The translations under genes were made by a program, and so were the position numbers. The notes beneath the pieces are model-generated. The model saw nothing but the letters and a program-made list of their open reading frames with translations. It was not told the origin of the DNA and did no database searches. 64,000 bases of DNA. Source: an uncultured Paracoccaceae bacterium (lineage in GTDB: Bacteria; Pseudomonadota; Alphaproteobacteria; Rhodobacterales; Rhodobacteraceae). Where the stretch lies: contig CANMKS010000001.1 of assembly GCA_947498645.1 (NCBI GenBank), forward strand, positions 1,154,032-1,218,031, in the 5' to 3' direction. Positions 12,035 through 19,905 of this stretch are shown in pieces (position 1 is the stretch's first letter; each line of letters opens with the position of its first letter).

Positions 12035-14167
12035 TTACTCCGCCGCCTCCTCTTTGGTGATCTCTTCGCCAGTTTCCTGATCAACCATCTTCATGGCCAG
12101 ACGGACCTTGCCGCGATCATCAAAGCCAAGCAGCTTGACCCAAACTTCCTGACCTTCCTTGAGGACATCAGAAGGATGGTTCAGACGACGGTTTTCGATC
12201 TGCGAGACATGCACCAGACCATCGCGCTTGCCAAAGAAGTTCACGAAAGCACCAAAGTCGACGACTTTCACGACCGTGCCTTTGTAGATCACGCCTTCTT
12301 CCGGCTCGGCCACGATCGAGTGGATCATGTCATAGGCCCGCTTGATCGCCTCGGCATCGTTGGATGCCAGCTTGATCACGCCATCATCGTTGATGTCGAC
12401 CTTGGCACCGGATGTCTCGACAATCTCGCGGATGACCTTGCCGCCGGACCCGATGACTTCACGGATCTTGTCAGTTGGGATCTGCATCGTCTCGATCTTG
12501 GGTGCATGCACAGAAAATTCCTGTGCGCCGGTCAGGGCTTTGGCCATTTCGCCAAGGATATGCAGACGGCCAGCTTTCGCCTGGGCGAGCGCTTTTGACA
12601 TAATCTCAGGCGTGATGCCTGCGATCTTGATGTCCATCTGCAAGGATGTGATGCCGTTTTCGGTACCCGCAACCTTGAAGTCCATGTCGCCAAGGTGGTC
12701 TTCGTCGCCCAGAATGTCTGACAGGATCGCATAAGACCCGTCATCTTCCATGACCAGACCCATTGCCACACCTGCAACCGGTGCTTTCAACGGCACGCCC
12801 GCATCCATCATGGACAAAGAGCCACCGCAGACGGACGCCATTGAGGACGACCCGTTGGATTCAGTGATCTCTGACACCAGACGGATGGTGTAAGGGAAAT
12901 CCGTTGCCGCGGGCAGAACCGCCTGAAGTGCACGCCATGCCAGCTTACCATGACCAATCTCGCGACGGCCCGGCCCCATCACACGGCCAACTTCACCGAC
13001 AGAGTAGGGTGGGAAGTTGTAGTGCAGCATGAAGTTGGATTTATACATGCCGGTCAGCGCGTCGATCATCTGCTCGTCATCGCCAGTGCCCAACGTGGTC
13101 ACAACCAGACCCTGCGTTTCGCCACGTGTGAACAGAGCAGAACCATGTGTCCGTGGCAGAATGCCGGTTTCAGACACAATCGGACGGATGGTGTCGAGGG
13201 CACGGCCATCAATACGCTTGCCGTTCTTGACGACATCACCGCGCAGAACACTTGATTCCAGCTTTTTCAGGGCCGCACCTAGGTTGCCATCTTCCTGCTG
13301 CTCTTCGGTCAGTGCGTCGATGATTTCCTGCTTGGCGGCTGCAACGGCGGCGGTGCGCTCTTGCTTGTCTGTGATCGCATAGGCGGCACGCATCTTGTCT
13401 TCGCCAGCAGCTTTTACAGCGGCAGACAGGTCAGAGTAATCGACCGGCTGGAAGTCAAATGGCTCTTTCGCGCAATCTTCGGCCAGATCAATGATCAGGT
13501 CGATGACAGGCTGGATTTGCTCGTGTGCGAATGTGACCGCACCCAGCATTTCGTCTTCTGTCAGCTCGTAGGCCTCGGATTCGACCATCATCACGGCGTC
13601 TTTGGTGCCGGCGACGACAAGGTCCAGACGCTGCTCGGGGTTCATGCGCAGATTGTGCATGTCGTCGATTTCGGGGTTCAGGATGTATTCACCGTCTTCA
13701 TAACCAACGCGGCAGGCGGCGATCGGTCCCATGAAGGGGGCGCCGGATATGGTCAGCGCCGCAGAGGCTGCGATCATCGCAACCATGTCGGGGTCGTTAA
13801 CCATGTCGTGTGACAGCACCGTGCACATCACCAGAACTTCGTTCTTGAAGCCGGGGACGAACAGCGGGCGAATGGGACGGTCGATCAAGCGGGCAGTCAG
13901 CGTCTCTTTCTCGGTGGGACGCGCTTCGCGCTTGAAAAAGCCGCCAGGCACTTTACCGGCGGCATAGTATTTCTCTTGGTAGTGGACGGTCAGCGGGAAA
14001 AAATCCTGCCCCGGCTTTTGCTTACGTGCATAAGTCACGTTCGCCATGACGCTGGTTTCACCCAATGTCGCGATGACAGAGCCATCGGCTTGGCGGGCAA
14101 CCTTGCCCGTTTCCAGTGACAGCGTTTCCTCGCCCCACTGAATTGATTTCTTCACTTCATTAAACAT
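12035..14167 (-). CDS. pnp: Polynucleotide phosphorylase
   Basis: 710 residues. PNPase degrades RNA from the 3' end using phosphate and works with RNase E in the degradosome. Two RNase PH-like domains (starting [18 protein letters not shown] and [19 protein letters not shown]) flank the helical linker. A KH domain follows ([20 protein letters not shown]), then an S1 domain ([20 protein letters not shown]), and the C-terminus is acidic. In most alphaproteobacteria pnp directly follows rpsO. Here four plus-strand genes lie between them, so pnp needs its own promoter in the 340-base region upstream. Confidence 0.98.
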
Positions 14168-14506
14168 GATGTTTTCCTAGTTGGCCTCATTGGGCCTTTT
14201 TGCGTAGGGGGCGTATTCCCCCTCATCCCCATATCTTGCTATGGCGCTGGGATGCGGGCGCCTGCTTCTCAAGATTTGCGGGACTTAGCGGGTTTTAGGC
14301 GGTTTGGGAAGGGGGGCTGCCCTTGTTGGGTGACTTCACGACAAACGTAGAAAGTCGCCGACGGCGATTCATCTTATTCAGGCCAAATTGTGAACAAAAT
14401 GTTTTACCAGAACACTCCTGAGCGCTTTCGAGGGCATAGATTTCGTGTAGTTGATCGAAATTGCGCCTACTGTTGGCAAATTGAGAACAATTGTCCGGAT
14501 AATCAC
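14168..14506. other. Intergenic region between pnp and the small membrane protein gene
   Basis: About 340 bases lie between divergent genes. The pnp leader on the minus strand contains a short GGCC/GGCC inverted repeat near 14182-14200. This could be a processing or autoregulation site, as known for pnp leaders in other bacteria. The half near 14370-14506 is AT-richer and should hold the promoter of the three-gene cassette. I saw no further gene in it. Confidence 0.5.
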
Positions 14507-14737
14507 ATGAAACCCATTCTGACCCTCAGCATCGTCTATGTCTTCGTGATGTCGGCACCTGCCATGGCATATATTGACCCGGTGACGGGCAGCTTCCTAT
14601 TGCAAGCGATCATCGGTGGTTTTGCGACTGCGCTGGTTGCCATTCGCCGCGTAAGAGAAAAGCTCCTGACCCTTCTTGGTATCCGAAAAGCACAAACTGA
14701 TGATGTTGGGGCGTCTGAGGACAAGTCAGAATCATGA
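14507..14737 (+). CDS. Small membrane protein of the YIDPxTGS type
   Basis: 76 residues from the ATG at 14507, which gives a signal-like N-terminus (LSIVYVFVMSAPAMA). The motif AYIDPVTGSFLLQ follows, then one hydrophobic segment (AIIGGFATALVAI), a basic patch (RRVREKLLTLLGIRK) and an acidic tail. A longer in-frame start at 14390 lacks this logic. From memory, small proteins with a YIDPGTGS signature occur beside membrane sulfatase/LtaS-like genes in several phyla, with no known function. The stop overlaps the next ATG by four bases, so it is coupled to the methyltransferase. It may be an accessory subunit of the enzyme encoded two genes downstream. Confidence 0.72.
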   Translation: MKPILTLSIVYVFVMSAPAMAYIDPVTGSFLLQAIIGGFATALVAIRRVREKLLTLLGIRKAQTDDVGASEDKSES

Positions 14738-16146
14738 GGTCTCCAGAGCGGGACCCCGGATCCTTTCGGGATCCGTCGGGGTATGTCTTTACGGAAGGTA
14801 GCCGTATCCTGCGGGCCGTCATGGCTCCGGCGGAAAAGACGTTCGGTGAAATTTATCGAAGTGGCCTTCTGCGCGAACTTGCAGACAAGAATTTGATGAT
14901 TGACTGCGTGCGCATTGATGCTGATGCAGAAATGCTGTCACAGTACAGGGGCGCACGCGGCGATACGGCTGTGGCGCTCTATGAACACCCCCGCGTGCCG
15001 ATGCTGACCTATCCGTATGAGTGGTGCTTTTCGCAACTAAAAGACGCGGCCCTTGCACATTTGGATTTACAGCTTGCAGCGCTTGAAAAGGGGTACGAAC
15101 TGTCCGATGCAACAGCATATAACATGCAATTCATCGACGGTCGTCCCGTGCACATTGATGCGATGTCACTGCGTCCCTACGTCGATGGCGTTCACTGGTC
15201 GGGGTACAACCAGTTTTGCCGCCAGTTCCTGTTGCCCCTTTTGCTAGAAGCATGGGCCGGTGTTGCATTTCAGGGTATTTATCGTGGGTCCCTCGACGGT
15301 ATTTCGTTCGAAGACGCTCTAGCTATTCTGCCGCGACGCAAGATTTTCACCTCGGCTAGCGGTATCATGCACGTCTATCTGCATGGCCGCGCGGTCCTTG
15401 CAAAATCGTCAAAGGCCGAGAAACAGGTCGATCTAGACCGGAAGCTGCCCAAAACGCGATATGTAGCTATGATTCAACAGTTGCGCGACTTTATCGGCGG
15501 ACTTGAGTCAGCCAAGAGGCCCTCCAGCTATTGGAATACCTACGCCACCATCAACAGCTATTCAGAGCCAATGCGTGATACCAAGTTGCAATTCGTCAAG
15601 GATTGGGCGGCATCGGCGAAACCAGATCTTATCTGGGACATCGGCGGAAATACCGGTGACTTTTCTTTGGCCGCCATCGAGGGCGGGGCTGGGGCATCCG
15701 TTGTTCTTGATGGTGATCTTGATTCATTGGAACGTGCCTACAGATTGCGCGTCAGGAAGGGCGAAAAACTGCTTCCGATGCTGATGAACTTGGTCGATCC
15801 AACGCCAAACATGGGCTGGCGGCAAGTCGAGCGGAAGGGTTTGAATGAACGGGCCGACGCGGACGGCGTGATCGCACTGGCCGTGATTCACCACATGTGT
15901 ATCGGTGGCAACCTGCCACTGGCCGAAGCATTACGCTGGCTGCTTTCGCTGGCGCCGACGGGTGTTATCGAATTCGTTCCAAAGGGTGACCCGATGGTCG
16001 ATCAGTTGCTGGCCGTTCGTGACGATATCTTTCACGACTATGAAGAGGACGTTTTTCTGAAAACGATCACAGAAAACCACGACATCACCGCAGAACACAA
16101 GTTTGCTGAAAACGGTAGGCTTTTGGTCGGATACAAAGCGAGATGA
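14734..16146 (+). CDS. SAM-dependent methyltransferase with an N-terminal kinase-like region
   Basis: 470 residues. The C-terminal part is a class I methyltransferase: motif I is WDIGGNTGDFS (residues 301-311), the acidic loop is VVLDGDLD, and VIALAVIHHMC lies near motif IV. The first half begins with FRDPSGYVF and contains SDATAYNMQFIDGRP then IDAMSL (near residues 124-145). This has the D-x4-N ... ID spacing of APH/HipA-like kinase catalytic loops. Related proteins have been annotated as nodulation protein NoeA. The substrate is unknown. The start at 14734 overlaps the upstream stop, and the end overlaps the sulfatase-like gene by four bases. The three genes therefore behave as one unit. 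Confidence 0.78.
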   Translation: MRSPERDPGSFRDPSGYVFTEGSRILRAVMAPAEKTFGEIYRSGLLRELADKNLMIDCVRIDADAEMLSQYRGARGDTAVALYEHPRVPMLTYPYEWCFSQLKDAALAHLDLQLAALEKGYELSDATAYNMQFIDGRPVHIDAMSLRPYVDGVHWSGYNQFCRQFLLPLLLEAWAGVAFQGIYRGSLDGISFEDALAILPRRKIFTSASGIMHVYLHGRAVLAKSSKAEKQVDLDRKLPKTRYVAMIQQLRDFIGGLESAKRPSSYWNTYATINSYSEPMRDTKLQFVKDWAASAKPDLIWDIGGNTGDFSLAAIEGGAGASVVLDGDLDSLERAYRLRVRKGEKLLPMLMNLVDPTPNMGWRQVERKGLNERADADGVIALAVIHHMCIGGNLPLAEALRWLLSLAPTGVIEFVPKGDPMVDQLLAVRDDIFHDYEEDVFLKTITENHDITAEHKFAENGRLLVGYKAR

Positions 16147-17591
16147 CCCCTCTACGTCTACGTATGATCGCGTTGGGTGCCCTATCTAGCGCGGCGCTCT
16201 TGCCGCACCTGTCTGCCATGAACTATGGCATAGCGTCATTCGAGATGATTGTTGGGATTACCCTGGCGGTTGGAAGTGGTGTGCTGCTTGGGCTAATCTC
16301 GGTCAGCCGTCTGAGTTTTGGAATCATCTTGGGCGCCCTGATCTATGTTATCTTGGATGCCTTCTTTCTGACGGGTGTTGCGGCGAGTAGCGCCGCCCTT
16401 GTCTGGTGCGTGATGCTCACGCCAATATTGCTGAAATTTGCGCCGAACGGGATTCCGCTTGCGGCTTCTGTCTTTGGGCTCATTTTTGGGCTCCAAGCTT
16501 TCTTTTCGCCAGCAAAGCCACTGTTCGCAGTCCAAGCTGCGGAGGTCGCGGTAGATGAGCCGAAACCGGGTTTTGCATACCTCCATATTGTCTTGGACGA
16601 ACAGATGTCGCCGACGGCAACGGTTCCCGGACTGACGCCAATCCCCGCCGCAGACATTGTTTTGGCGACCTATCGTGACAATGGATTCAAGACCTATGCG
16701 CACGCTGACTCAATTTGGCCGATGACTTTCATTGCTTTGACTGCAATGTTCGGACTGACAGATGATCTCGACAATTTCACCGAAGATCTTGATCGGGTCA
16801 CCCACGACTATTCCGTTGCAGACAATGCCATGGTCCGGCGGTTGGCGGCAAACGGCTTCTCCACAACAATCATAGAAAGTGACTACATCGGGTTGTGTAG
16901 TGATAACCCGACTGTGAACTGCCACACATACAGTTCCAGGGCCAATGCCGCCATTCTTGAAGAGATGGACCTTTCGCTCTGGGATCGGTTGGATCTGATG
17001 TTTGTAAACCTGCATGAAGGGTACGCTTGGCGTGGGCAGGAGCTGTTCGCCTATCGCAGCGTCGTTGACGCTGTGACACGGCTGCGGGGATATGCCGAGC
17101 CGGTGACGCGCGGTCAGGTCACGATGACCATGACTGGCATGAAAATCTTGGATGACCTCGCTGTCACTGCGCCAAACCTCGAGCCGGGCGAGGCGCTGAT
17201 AGCGCATGTCATTGCTCCGCATTATCCGTATGTTTTTGACCGCGAATGCAATTTTTTGAATCTGGATGACTGGCGCAATCCTGTCCGATATGAATTAGAG
17301 CCGAACGCTGCCCGCTCTTATGTTGCGTTTTGGGAGCAGTCGATCTGCGTACACAACAAGATCGAAGCGATCCTTGCGGCAGTCGAAGACCGCGACGATA
17401 TCGTCATCCTGATTCACGGAGATCACGGGGCACGCGTGCTGTCAAAAAGGCCGGAGAGGACGCGGAATGATCTACAGGCCACGTTCCTTGCCATCAAGGG
17501 ACCCAACATCGCGCCTGAATTGCTCTTGGATACGGTCAACCTTCAAACGACCTTTGCCGAAGAGTTTAACGCGATTTTCGGGCCCGATTGA
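16143..17591 (+). CDS. Membrane-bound sulfatase/phosphoethanolamine transferase-like enzyme
   Basis: 482 residues. About four membrane helices fill residues 1-123, followed by a periplasmic alkaline-phosphatase-superfamily domain. Metal-site candidates are Asp152 (IVLDEQM), APHYPY (His360) and IHGDHGARV (Asp427, His428). A Thr at 195 or 200 in WPMTFIALTAMFG is the likely nucleophile. The layout is like LtaS, OpgB and EptA enzymes that move a charged head group onto a glycan or lipid. The product is unknown. It is coupled to the methyltransferase by a four-base overlap. No terminator is obvious after it. Confidence 0.8.
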   Translation: MTPLRLRMIALGALSSAALLPHLSAMNYGIASFEMIVGITLAVGSGVLLGLISVSRLSFGIILGALIYVILDAFFLTGVAASSAALVWCVMLTPILLKFAPNGIPLAASVFGLIFGLQAFFSPAKPLFAVQAAEVAVDEPKPGFAYLHIVLDEQMSPTATVPGLTPIPAADIVLATYRDNGFKTYAHADSIWPMTFIALTAMFGLTDDLDNFTEDLDRVTHDYSVADNAMVRRLAANGFSTTIIESDYIGLCSDNPTVNCHTYSSRANAAILEEMDLSLWDRLDLMFVNLHEGYAWRGQELFAYRSVVDAVTRLRGYAEPVTRGQVTMTMTGMKILDDLAVTAPNLEPGEALIAHVIAPHYPYVFDRECNFLNLDDWRNPVRYELEPNAARSYVAFWEQSICVHNKIEAILAAVEDRDDIVILIHGDHGARVLSKRPERTRNDLQATFLAIKGPNIAPELLLDTVNLQTTFAEEFNAIFGPD

Positions 17592-17847
17592 ACGGCCAGA
17601 ACGCCTGATCAGATCTTGATTGCGAGCTTCATGAACACCTTGCCTGGGACCAGACGGCGGGTACATTTAGCTGTCTGCCCTAACCTGGCAAGGCTGTAGG
17701 CTCTGGACGGTTTGCCAAGAATGAACCCTGTTGAAGGCCGGCGTCACAGCAGCCCGCAATTCTTTTTGCAAATCGCAGAATAAGACCGCTCTCTGGTGCG
17801 TAACCACTGTGGAAACCCACTATGCAACCCAAACAGAGAGTAAGAAG

Positions 17848-18570
17848 ATGACTTTATTGAAATCCACAACATTGGCAGCGCTTTTTGTCACCAGCACCGC
17901 TACTTTTGCAACTGCGCAGGCATTCAACCTTGAGATTGACGGGCTGGATCTGGCCCCATCGATCAGCGATGGTTTCGGCGCCGATGATGATCTAGGACGC
18001 GAGCCGTCTCTGCGTGCCACGGCAGGATACACATTTGCCAATGGCGCAGGTCTGCGTCTGCAATTATGGGACATGGATATGTCCTATGATGAAGGCAAAA
18101 ACGGCAACCCAACCGAAATTCAATCGCAGCAGCTCGACCTGATTGGCTTTAACGAATTTGAGGTGACGCCTGGACTGGATCTTGAGGTCTCGGCCGGGGT
18201 TCGGAAGCTGGACTTTGAAGACTTGAACTTCGCTGACGGTGGCCTGACGAATGCGCATGAATTTGACGGCATTGGCGCTGTTTTTGGCGTAAAGGCGACG
18301 CAGGCCATGTTCGAAAATGGCGGGGTTTACGGCAGCTTTGAAACAGCGGCCTTGTTCGGCGATCTGATCGACAACGGAGACGCTGATCCACAGTCGCATC
18401 TGTCGCAGCTGGCTATCGGGTTGGGCTATGAACACAAATTCTCTGTTGGTCCAACGACCACAACGCTGAAGGTCGGCTATGAGGCGCATCAGTGGACCGG
18501 AATTGAGGACAGTTCTGATGGCGCTTTTGGCTTTGATGGCCTTGTCGTAGGTGCTGCTGTTTCCTTCTAA
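17848..18570 (+). CDS. Outer-membrane beta-barrel protein
   Basis: 240 residues from the ATG at 17848, preceded by AGAGAG. A signal peptide follows (LAALFVTSTATFATAQA). An upstream frame from 17731 is open but lacks a secretion signal at its start. The mature protein has regularly alternating strands (GLRLQLWDMDMSYDEG, LDLEVSAGVRKLDFEDL, TTTLKVGYEAHQWTG) and ends in GLVVGAAVSF, the C-terminal Phe of an outer-membrane barrel. It looks like a small orphan porin-like protein. It is convergent with rpsO and shares its terminator. Confidence 0.8.
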   Translation: MTLLKSTTLAALFVTSTATFATAQAFNLEIDGLDLAPSISDGFGADDDLGREPSLRATAGYTFANGAGLRLQLWDMDMSYDEGKNGNPTEIQSQQLDLIGFNEFEVTPGLDLEVSAGVRKLDFEDLNFADGGLTNAHEFDGIGAVFGVKATQAMFENGGVYGSFETAALFGDLIDNGDADPQSHLSQLAIGLGYEHKFSVGPTTTTLKVGYEAHQWTGIEDSSDGAFGFDGLVVGAAVSF

Positions 18571-18599
18571 GACCAGCAGCATGCCCGAACGAAGAAACA

Positions 18600-18630
18600 A
18601 AAAACGCCCACCATTTGGTGGGCGTTTTTC
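18600..18630. terminator. Bidirectional terminator between the barrel gene and rpsO
   Basis: AAAACGCCCACCA pairs with TGGTGGGCGTTTT, with A and T runs at the two ends. It sits about 30 bases from each convergent stop codon, so it can end both transcripts. Confidence 0.92.
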
Positions 18631-18655
18631 TATTCCTGTGGCTGTTTTTGTCGCT

Positions 18656-18925
18656 TTAGCGACGCAGACCCAGACGCTTGATCAGGTCCTGATAGCGGGC
18701 CTCGTCCTTGCCTTTGGTGTAATCCAGAAGCTTACGGCGCTGGGCGACCATCTTAAGCAGGCCGCGGCGGCCGTGATTGTCTTTTTTGTGGGTCTTGAAG
18801 TGCTCTGTCAGCGTCGCGATGCGGCTGGACAGGATTGCAATTTGCACCTCGGGGGAGCCAGTGTCGCCCTCTTTGGTTGCAAAATCCTTCATGATCTTTG
18901 CTTTATCTTCAGCAGTAATCGACAT
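18656..18925 (-). CDS. rpsO: 30S ribosomal protein S15
   Basis: 89 residues, exactly the family length. S15 binds 16S rRNA helices 20-22 early in 30S assembly. The sequence is canonical: [51 protein letters not shown] and [11 protein letters not shown] good GGAGACC-type ribosome site precedes the ATG. The gene is on the same strand as truB upstream and pnp downstream, but both are displaced by inserted genes. About 137 bases to the RTX gene leave room for its own promoter and for the leader hairpins that S15 often uses to repress itself. Confidence 0.98.
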
Positions 18926-19062: not shown

Positions 19063-19905
19063 TTAGACCGCGATCAGGGTGACGCTATCTGTGTCCAACT
19101 CAACAAGATCAAGGAAGGTCGCAATCACCTCTTCTCCGGCCATCAGCACAAGCCCGTCCTCGGTCAGGGTTGTCCGTAGTTCCGGCGCGTCGCCTTCATA
19201 GGTGATCTCGATCTTGTCAATCTGCGCGTCATAATCCTCGACAATCACGTCGTTGTGGGCCTTCAGCGCAAAGAGGTCCGCGCCGGTTCCCCCGTTGAGC
19301 GTATCACCCGCACCACCCATCAGCACATCATCCCCGGCACCGCCGTTGATAAAGTCGGGATCATCATCACCGCGGTCATACAGCATGTCGTTCCCTGATC
19401 CGCCATGCAGCGTATCTGCACCCGCACCGCCGACCAGCACGTCATCGCCCAGCGAGCCCAACAGGGCGTCATCCCCGTCGCCCCCCATGAGCAGATCATT
19501 CCCGCCACCACCGTTGAGCATGTCATCGCCATCGCCACCTTGCAGGATGTCATCGCCCACATGCCCGTTCAGGTGGTCATCCCCGCTACCGGCATCCAGT
19601 TGGTCATCCCCTCGTCCCCCGTGCAGCACATCATCCCCAGCGTGACTGATCAAAAGGTCGTTGCCGTCCTCCCCGTCAAGATGGTCGTCACCAATGCCGG
19701 TCACGATTGTATCGTCACCGTCGCCCGCAAAGATCACCGTGTCGTTGTCACTTGGGGCAACCAGGTCGTCGATTGGTCTGATCGACTGGCTGGGGTCGTC
19801 CTGATCGGGGTGCCGATCTTCGTCTGGCGCGGGGGCATCGTCGTCTGTATCTGCGATGAAGAATGCCGTTGCGGCGACCCCCATCAATCCCAAGATTGCG
19901 AGCAT
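19063..19905 (-). CDS. Membrane-anchored RTX calcium-binding repeat protein
   Basis: 280 residues. The N-terminus is a short hydrophobic segment ([17 protein letters not shown]) and then a Pro/Asp-rich linker to about residue 55. Nonapeptide RTX repeats GGxGxDxLx run from about 60 to 200 (for example [17 protein letters not shown]). Such repeats fold into a Ca2+-filled beta-roll outside the cell. The final 60 residues resemble the C-terminal cap seen in exported RTX proteins. No ABC exporter is nearby. The N-terminal hydrophobic stretch is unusual for a type I substrate, so it may be tethered. The start at 19905 is preceded by a plausible site, but an extension cannot be excluded. Confidence 0.82.

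Follow-up and report, generated by a model that had tools for sequence, protein, structure and literature searches.

Results

A noeA-noeB-type gene set in the window

The window analyzed here, a stretch of 64,000 nucleotides from an uncultured Paracoccaceae bacterium (contig CANMKS010000001.1), carries three consecutive genes encoding a small membrane protein, a homologue of NoeA, and a NoeB-type inner-membrane enzyme of the alkaline phosphatase superfamily (AlkP). Their positions, with lengths in amino acids (aa) and, where it applies, the basis in open reading frame (ORF) translation or homology, are as follows.

14507-14737, + strand: gene 1, small membrane protein, 76 aa (ORF translation)
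14734-14737, + strand: ATGA overlap of the gene 1 stop and the gene 2 start
14734-16146, + strand: gene 2, NoeA homologue, 470 aa (ORF translation, homology)
16143-16146, + strand: ATGA overlap of the gene 2 stop and the gene 3 start
16143-17591, + strand: gene 3, NoeB-type AlkP inner-membrane enzyme, 482 aa

The coupling of three + strand genes by two four-base overlaps, as read in an earlier note on this DNA, is confirmed, with ATGA at both joints. In the mechanical ORF list, the frame of gene 1 opens at a GTG at 14390 and would give 115 aa, versus the 76 aa used here. All three window proteins fall outside the curated Pfam and NCBIfam models.

The same note held that no system with this exact set had been described. 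Homology, the gene order in Sinorhizobium/Ensifer, and the accessible text of PMC9758233 lead to a different view: the three-gene set is already known as the noeA-noeB gene set, and the novelty of the set is therefore modest. The new points are a near-obligate small partner, an exchangeable enzyme slot, and a fast-changing AlkP. The nodL-noeA-noeB operon of Sinorhizobium meliloti/Ensifer matches the window in its three families and in their order, a small ORF bearing the motif YLDPGTGS lying directly upstream of noeA. Ensifer canadensis pT173b and S. meliloti ml47 pSymA both carry, in this order, nodL, a gene for a 71-aa protein, noeA, and noeB; the 71-aa protein, annotated as "hypothetical protein" in the two plasmid records, reads ...PAHA-YLDPGTGSMLVQ... 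in Ensifer and belongs to the same family as gene 1. The window differs in that its next upstream gene is pnp on the opposite strand rather than nodL, and the proteins have diverged (about 40% identity for NoeA; about 21% between gene 3 and NoeB over 58% of the length).

The small protein is an almost obligate partner of NoeA

We looked for both proteins in genomes drawn from the class, the phylum, and a second phylum (that of L097, a Thermoanaerobaculia record), none of which were chosen by similarity to the window. Among 289 genomes of the class, NoeA was present in 17 and the small protein in 26, with both in 15 (Fisher p, 2e-16). NoeA matched in 177 of 299 genomes of the phylum, and only the 7 full-length matches (bits >300) were kept; the small protein occurred in 13 genomes, including all 7 (Fisher p, 4e-11). 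The remaining phylum matches were dropped, those listed being short, located around the methyltransferase motif, and below 36 bits, and those beyond the listing scoring lower still. In the second phylum (199 genomes; cut-offs of E ≤1e-15 for NoeA and E ≤0.001 for the small protein), NoeA was found in 38 genomes and the small protein in the identical 38. The small protein is an almost obligate partner of NoeA, a tie that we did not find in the literature searched and consider a new point. At the 20 second-phylum NoeA loci that were fetched, the small protein was adjacent in 19. Five second-phylum genomes (G650, G716, G725, G777, and G785) carry the pair unlinked, the two genes being separated by more than 300 kb or placed on different contigs; a shared need is thus a likelier cause of the co-occurrence than linkage.

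The linkage of all three families was assessed at 93 nonredundant NoeA loci. These comprise the best 80 of at least 582 loci from a GTDB contig scan with the window NoeA, supplemented with plasmid, same-genus, and class loci to a total of 101, from which 8 (>90% identical) were dropped. The small protein was present at 87 of the 93 loci and all three families at 81, counts that describe near relatives of the window NoeA. The wide co-occurrence that the earlier note had proposed to look for is thus borne out. Its suggested comparison of gene order was equally productive: the order nodL-small ORF-noeA-noeB emerged in Sinorhizobium/Ensifer, and the small gene lies upstream of NoeA on the same strand at 85 of the 93 loci, with 2 divergent cases (L015 and L048). 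The profile did not find it at the remaining six (L017, L018, L025, L051, and L016 and L073, where NoeA lies at a contig edge). An AlkP gene was located within 2.5 kb of NoeA at 83 loci. At 65 of these it lies downstream in the orientation of NoeA, at 3 downstream in the opposite orientation, and at 15 upstream, 9 of the latter sharing the NoeA strand. The small/NoeA joint is a four-base overlap (ATGA, GTGA, or TTGA) at 38 of 87 loci, and the NoeA/AlkP joint is of the same kind at 19 of the 54 loci with AlkP close downstream on the same strand. Clustering of the neighbors (1,047 ORFs of ≥110 aa at 70 long loci) gave NoeA and AlkP as the families consistently placed beside NoeA; the next families, named by eye, were ABC-transporter-like (13 loci) and epimerase-like (10 loci) and occupied scattered positions.

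Among the 80 named loci (the top 80 of at least 582), just 7 carry a rhizobial genus name (Rhizobium, Sinorhizobium, Mesorhizobium, or Bradyrhizobium). Records of Pelagibacter, Legionellales, Planctomycetota, and Nitrospirota are also represented, and the trio occurs on a Novosphingobium plasmid as well.

Gene 1 encodes a YxDP-family membrane protein

The window small protein, MSAPAMA-YIDPVTGSFLLQ, has a predicted signal peptide ending in AMA, a mature N terminus YIDPVTGS, one transmembrane (TM) helix, and a basic C-terminal tail. The earlier note's small membrane protein with a YIDPxTGS signature is borne out by the ORF and by the homologues. Across 87 homologues (window included), the Y, the D, and a Gln (Q) in the TM helix are invariant, and P follows D in 81; the Thr and Ser of the motif are kept in 71 and 74, respectively. 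The window protein matches the family profile at 3.0e-21 (the window being among the 37 rows of the profile) and shows the complete family pattern of an AxA site, Y-x-D, a TM helix with Q, and a basic tail. Since Ala is conserved at positions -1 (84/87) and -3 (78/87), the sequences suggest a signal peptidase I site directly before the Y. The mean net charge is -1.0 for the mature N terminus and +3.8 for the stretch after the TM helix, the latter being the more positive in all 87 homologues; by the positive-inside rule, an N-out, C-in topology is predicted. A description of this motif was not found in the literature searched.

Distant relatives carry Y-x-GPG instead of Y-x-DP (L122, L124, L125, L126, L128, and L176 to L180) and possibly constitute a sister adaptor family. 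Pfam matches place a Sulfotransfer_3 gene near L124 and L128 and an arylsulfotransferase-like gene near L122; judged by eye, a sulfotransferase-like ORF lies near L125 and L122, and none was recognized near L126.

Gene 2 encodes a full-length NoeA homologue

Gene 2 shares about 40% identity with Sinorhizobium/Ensifer NoeA at 99% coverage. In a plasmid search it matched 65 records, 57 of them from Sinorhizobium, with at least 80% of its length covered in every case; the best 20 of the 65 showed 40 to 42% identity at 95 to 99% coverage, and some of these are annotated noeA. These alignments firmly place gene 2 as a full-length member of the NoeA family, across both its kinase-like and its methyltransferase domain. 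The former is N-terminal and contains D125, N130, and D142, named as kinase residues by analogy with PMC9758233 rather than by structure comparison; the latter is a C-terminal class I methyltransferase domain with DIGGNTGD at 302 to 309. R27, D125, N130, D142, and methyltransferase positions 302, 304, 306, and 308 are invariant in a 67-row NoeA alignment (A4), and the kinase-like/methyltransferase fusion described in the earlier note stands, now as a NoeA homologue. In the AlphaFold2 (AF2) model (mean predicted local distance difference test [pLDDT] score, 94), the secondary structure as we read it follows a kinase-like strand-helix order around the catalytic loop and then appears to form a Rossmann methyltransferase. 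The best 50 Foldseek rows and a PDB profile search returned mostly methyltransferases. WbdD was present, not on top: it appeared among the methyltransferase matches at Foldseek rank 36 and with a sequence profile E value of 0.002 to 0.004.

Gene 3 encodes an AlkP-superfamily enzyme with Thr at the nucleophile position

In gene 3, five N-terminal helices read as TM segments precede a catalytic domain in which Thr195 occupies the position of the nucleophile. In a 44-row alignment (A5), D152, H360, and D427 are present in all rows and H355 in 43. Position 195 is T in 40 rows and S in 4, and position 428 is H in 36 and E in 8, the window reading HGDHG at 425 to 429. This is the metal-ligand D/H set and D(H/E)G motif of the AlkP superfamily. 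N-terminal membrane helices followed by an AlkP domain are also the layout of LtaS, EptA, MCR-1, and PbgA, from which gene 3 differs by its low TM-scores and by identities of 8 to 15% in the Foldseek rows shown. LtaS and EptA use a Thr nucleophile.

The earlier note had called this protein an LtaS-like sulfatase. The LtaS/EptA-like membrane AlkP enzyme holds up; the sulfatase label is doubtful, because the nucleophile position is occupied by Thr or Ser and the formylglycine signature is absent from the window protein. C/S-x-P-x-R is the active-site signature of formylglycine sulfatases, and in the window protein Thr195 is followed by FIAL. Sulfatase PF00884 gave no match to the window protein at an E value of 10, and it does match Ensifer NoeB and the PP1Y homologue. 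A Thr at this position points to phospho-transfer chemistry rather than that of a formylglycine sulfatase, and judging from its residues, gene 3 is probably a phospho-transferase and not a sulfatase. Foldseek with the AF2 model (pLDDT, 86) ranked MCR-1 best, followed by choline sulfatase, other sulfatases, PbgA, LtaS, and EptA. At one further locus (L010:2891-4374), the AlkP gene beside NoeA is represented by two overlapping ORFs in different frames, due to a frameshift or a sequencing fault.

The three genes are under purifying selection and AlkP diverges faster than NoeA

Compared with the copy in the same-genus genome G337, identity is 93% for NoeA, 91% for the small protein, and 81% for AlkP, with dN/dS (ratio of nonsynonymous to synonymous substitution rates) values of 0.061, 0.245, and 0.138, respectively (custom NG86 script); by this comparison, all three genes are under purifying selection. 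Against G018, the identities are 83, 68, and 39%. The mean pairwise identity over 75 loci is 17% for AlkP versus 45% for NoeA. This faster divergence would fit AlkP being the variable specificity part on a conserved core. The distances of the three proteins correlate (Mantel r, 0.52, 0.38, and 0.32; each p, 0.001, not tree corrected). Within the genus the cassette is patchy: NoeA occurs in 2 of 36 genomes and the small protein in 5 of 56, one by a weak match.

A TagF-like enzyme in the place of NoeA

The small protein was found in the apparent absence of NoeA in 11 of the 289 class genomes. In three of these (L119, L123, and L127), it forms the N-terminal part of a PF04464 (TagF-like) protein, and in two others (L113 and L115), it is encoded between an AlkP gene and a PF04464-like gene. 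Since a TagF-like enzyme fills the NoeA slot elsewhere, the small protein appears to be an adaptor that serves cytosolic phospho-donor enzymes in general. This exchange of the cytosolic enzyme and the PF04464 fusion are our main reasons for reading the small protein as a tether.

Discussion

A proposed phospho-decorating surface cassette with a membrane tether

We tentatively propose, giving it somewhat less than an even chance, that the NoeA/NoeB-type cassette attaches a phospho-group to a glycan or lipid that is secreted or exposed on the cell surface and that the small protein tethers NoeA near AlkP. The family identity is firm; the chemistry and substrate we infer. In this scheme, the small protein would be cleaved after AMA, so that YIDPVTGS faces the periplasm and the tail remains in the cytosol, where it would hold the cytosolic NoeA at the membrane next to gene 3. 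NoeA might then phosphorylate a membrane-linked acceptor and methylate the phosphate or its carrier, as WbdD does. Gene 3 could transfer or remove a periplasmic phospho-substituent via a phospho-Thr intermediate and set the acceptor specificity. The earlier idea of adding a head group and then a methyl group is compatible with this scheme, the WbdD precedent suggesting phosphorylation followed by methylation of the phosphate.

To our knowledge, WbdD has no small-protein or AlkP partner. In the accessible text of PMC3482155, WbdD phosphorylates the terminal mannose of the O-antigen mannan and then methylates that phosphate; like gene 2, this Escherichia coli O9a protein combines a kinase and a methyltransferase in one polypeptide, and it acts on a membrane-linked glycan. 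A closer parallel is offered by Legionella anisa, where, in the passages of PMC9758233 (2022) consulted, the homologue Lani_1194 is described as a kinase plus class I methyltransferase, Lani_1193 and Lani_1195 are its neighbors in 65 and 38% of 816 neighborhoods, and an alkaline phosphatase fold is predicted for NoeB and Lani_1195. As in the window, a kinase-methyltransferase NoeA homologue thus has conserved neighbors, one of which is of the AlkP fold. Lani_1193, which the text does not identify further, may be the small protein.

Extending this proposal, the YxDP microprotein might be a general adaptor that recruits interchangeable phospho-donors, NoeA or TagF-like, to a fast-diversifying periplasmic AlkP transferase, yielding strain-specific surface chemistry. 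We consider this a possibility, held with clear reserve. If it is true, an overlooked small ORF is the missing fourth gene of the nodL-noeA-noeB host-range operon; no description of a small gene beside noeA was found in the passages of the noeA literature searched. Should the small ORF prove to encode a required subunit, studies of NoeA by itself would miss a part, and the near-constant partner makes a long-unexplained gene set easier to test.

Several observations weigh against the proposed tethering and phospho-decoration or limit the counts behind it. The small protein was not found in 2 of the 17 class genomes with NoeA (G164 and G176, both with distant NoeAs). The 38 second-phylum genomes are not independent: the 20 fetched NoeAs can be sorted into 12 groups (60% identity), and in the four of the five unlinked cases that were compared, the small proteins are much alike and look like one lineage. 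The counts of 87/93 and 81/93 are weakened by their restriction to near relatives, by the derivation of the small-protein profile from 60 motif-selected loci among the 93, and by the inclusion of L016 and L021, NoeA pieces on two contigs of one genome. AlkP was not found within 2.5 kb at 10 of the 93 loci, 7 of them with some 10 kb of sequence to either side, and the short flanks at the second-phylum loci showed it in only 5 of 20 cases. As regards the enzymes, searches of Pfam and PDB with the kinase domain by itself gave no credible relative by sequence, and its fold is assigned from motifs, secondary-structure order, and PMC9758233 rather than from a domain-level fold search. WbdD has the opposite domain order, methyltransferase then kinase, and a C-terminal coiled coil; gene 2 has the kinase-like domain first and does not show this WbdD-family layout, and its match to WbdD is confined to the methyltransferase motif region. 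The Foldseek TM-scores of gene 3 are low (about 0.3 to 0.4, at 8 to 15% identity in the rows shown), and true sulfatases score as high as transferases. Among the 11 class genomes with the small protein only, the PF04464 match in L115 is below the curated cut-off, two (L118 and L120) have no recognized partner in the flank, and four (L122, L124, L125, and L126) have only the distant YxGPG form. In the same-genus genome G339 (L163, G339:C3:167000-183000), the small protein and AlkP occur with no NoeA in the 16 kb read, a possible half-cassette or result of loss. Glycan-cluster context was rejected as a clue to the substrate, the near genes not being visibly richer in glycan genes: the 99 nearest genes outside the trio (of 119 listed) gave 3 nucleotidyltransferase, 2 PGM/PMM, and 2 GT2 matches (25 of 154 families shown), and 89 distant genes at the same loci gave 3 epimerase and 2 GT2 matches (25 of 128 families shown).

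Some of these observations lend themselves to other explanations. The small protein could be first of all a subunit or activator of AlkP in the membrane, with the NoeA or TagF-like enzyme acting upstream and not binding it. The G339 pair would suit such a role, as would the small gene beside AlkP in L175 and in G725 (L265), where NoeA lies elsewhere in the genome, and the invariant TM Gln and conserved YxDP face could contact a membrane enzyme. We nevertheless regard this as rather unlikely, because the small protein tracks NoeA closer than AlkP does, occurring in the same 38 of 199 genomes and lying adjacent to NoeA at 19 of 20 second-phylum loci versus 5 of 20 with AlkP in the flank read, and because it is fused to the PF04464 enzyme in three genomes; no small-AlkP fusion turned up at the loci examined, where no search was aimed at one. 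The conserved octapeptide itself, predicted to be periplasmic and beside a Thr-nucleophile enzyme, raises the idea that the small protein is a substrate, with the AlkP enzyme or the kinase modifying its new N terminus or the Thr/Ser of YIDPxTGS. This seems improbable to us: the Thr (71/87) and Ser (74/87) are less conserved than Y, D, and Q (87/87), the kinase is predicted to be cytosolic and hence on the opposite side from the motif, and the PF04464 fusion suits an anchor better.

The rhizobial context suggests another role. Work by Ardourel from 1995 is said to be the source for control by noeA-noeB of the nodulation of particular Medicago species. The noeA and noeB genes are cited as host-range nodulation genes in the accessible parts of PMC9048898, PMC4053727, PMC10945364, and PMC3899959, the first of which gives modification of the Nod factor as their hypothesized role. 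Together with the position of nodL upstream in Sinorhizobium/Ensifer, this would be in line with a module that modifies a secreted signal, a lipo-chitooligosaccharide in rhizobia and another exported oligosaccharide here. We think this unlikely, given the 7 rhizobial names among the 80 named loci and the noeA orthologue reported in a non-symbiont in the available text of PMC3899959; the modification made by NoeA/NoeB and its chemistry were not found in the open-licence literature searched. The cassette is found well beyond rhizobia, and its underlying function therefore probably lies in envelope chemistry, not in symbiosis. That the three genes are chance neighbors carried together by a mobile segment would fit the patchy distribution within the genus noted above and the different location of the G018 copy. 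It is contradicted by the co-occurrence in two phyla, the unlinked pairs in five genomes, and the purifying selection, and we give it hardly any credence.

Genomic surroundings

The genes around the trio were identified by Pfam matches.

12035-14167, - strand: pnp, polynucleotide phosphorylase
17731-18570, between the trio and rpsO: weak outer-membrane-protein match
18656-18925, - strand: rpsO, ribosomal protein S15
19063-19905, beyond and adjoining rpsO: gene for an RTX calcium-binding-repeat protein

The earlier note placed the module inside a normally contiguous rpsO-pnp pair. In this genus the pair is not tightly contiguous: of the 30 rpsO loci fetched, counting that of the window itself, just 5 have the pnp start inside the 1.5-kb flank (L160 has no flank on the pnp side). 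Both the window genome and G337 have the trio next to pnp, and the 21 kb surrounding the copy in G018 showed neither rpsO nor pnp. Since the rpsO-pnp interval (14168 to 18655 in the window) varies in the genus, the location of the trio carries no functional message, and its position there is incidental.

No nod gene was recognized in a scan confined to the five flanking proteins. Base composition gave no strong foreign signal, with a GC content of about 0.52 to 0.55 for the module and 0.55 to 0.58 over most of pnp. A role in anti-phage defense was rejected, the best PADLOC match having an E value of 0.032. The rpsO-pnp interval measures about 330 to 370 bp in L133, L157, and L158, and an outer-membrane-protein-like gene lies beside rpsO in L140 and L148. 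A similar RTX protein gene adjoins rpsO at all 30 fetched same-genus loci, the window's own included.

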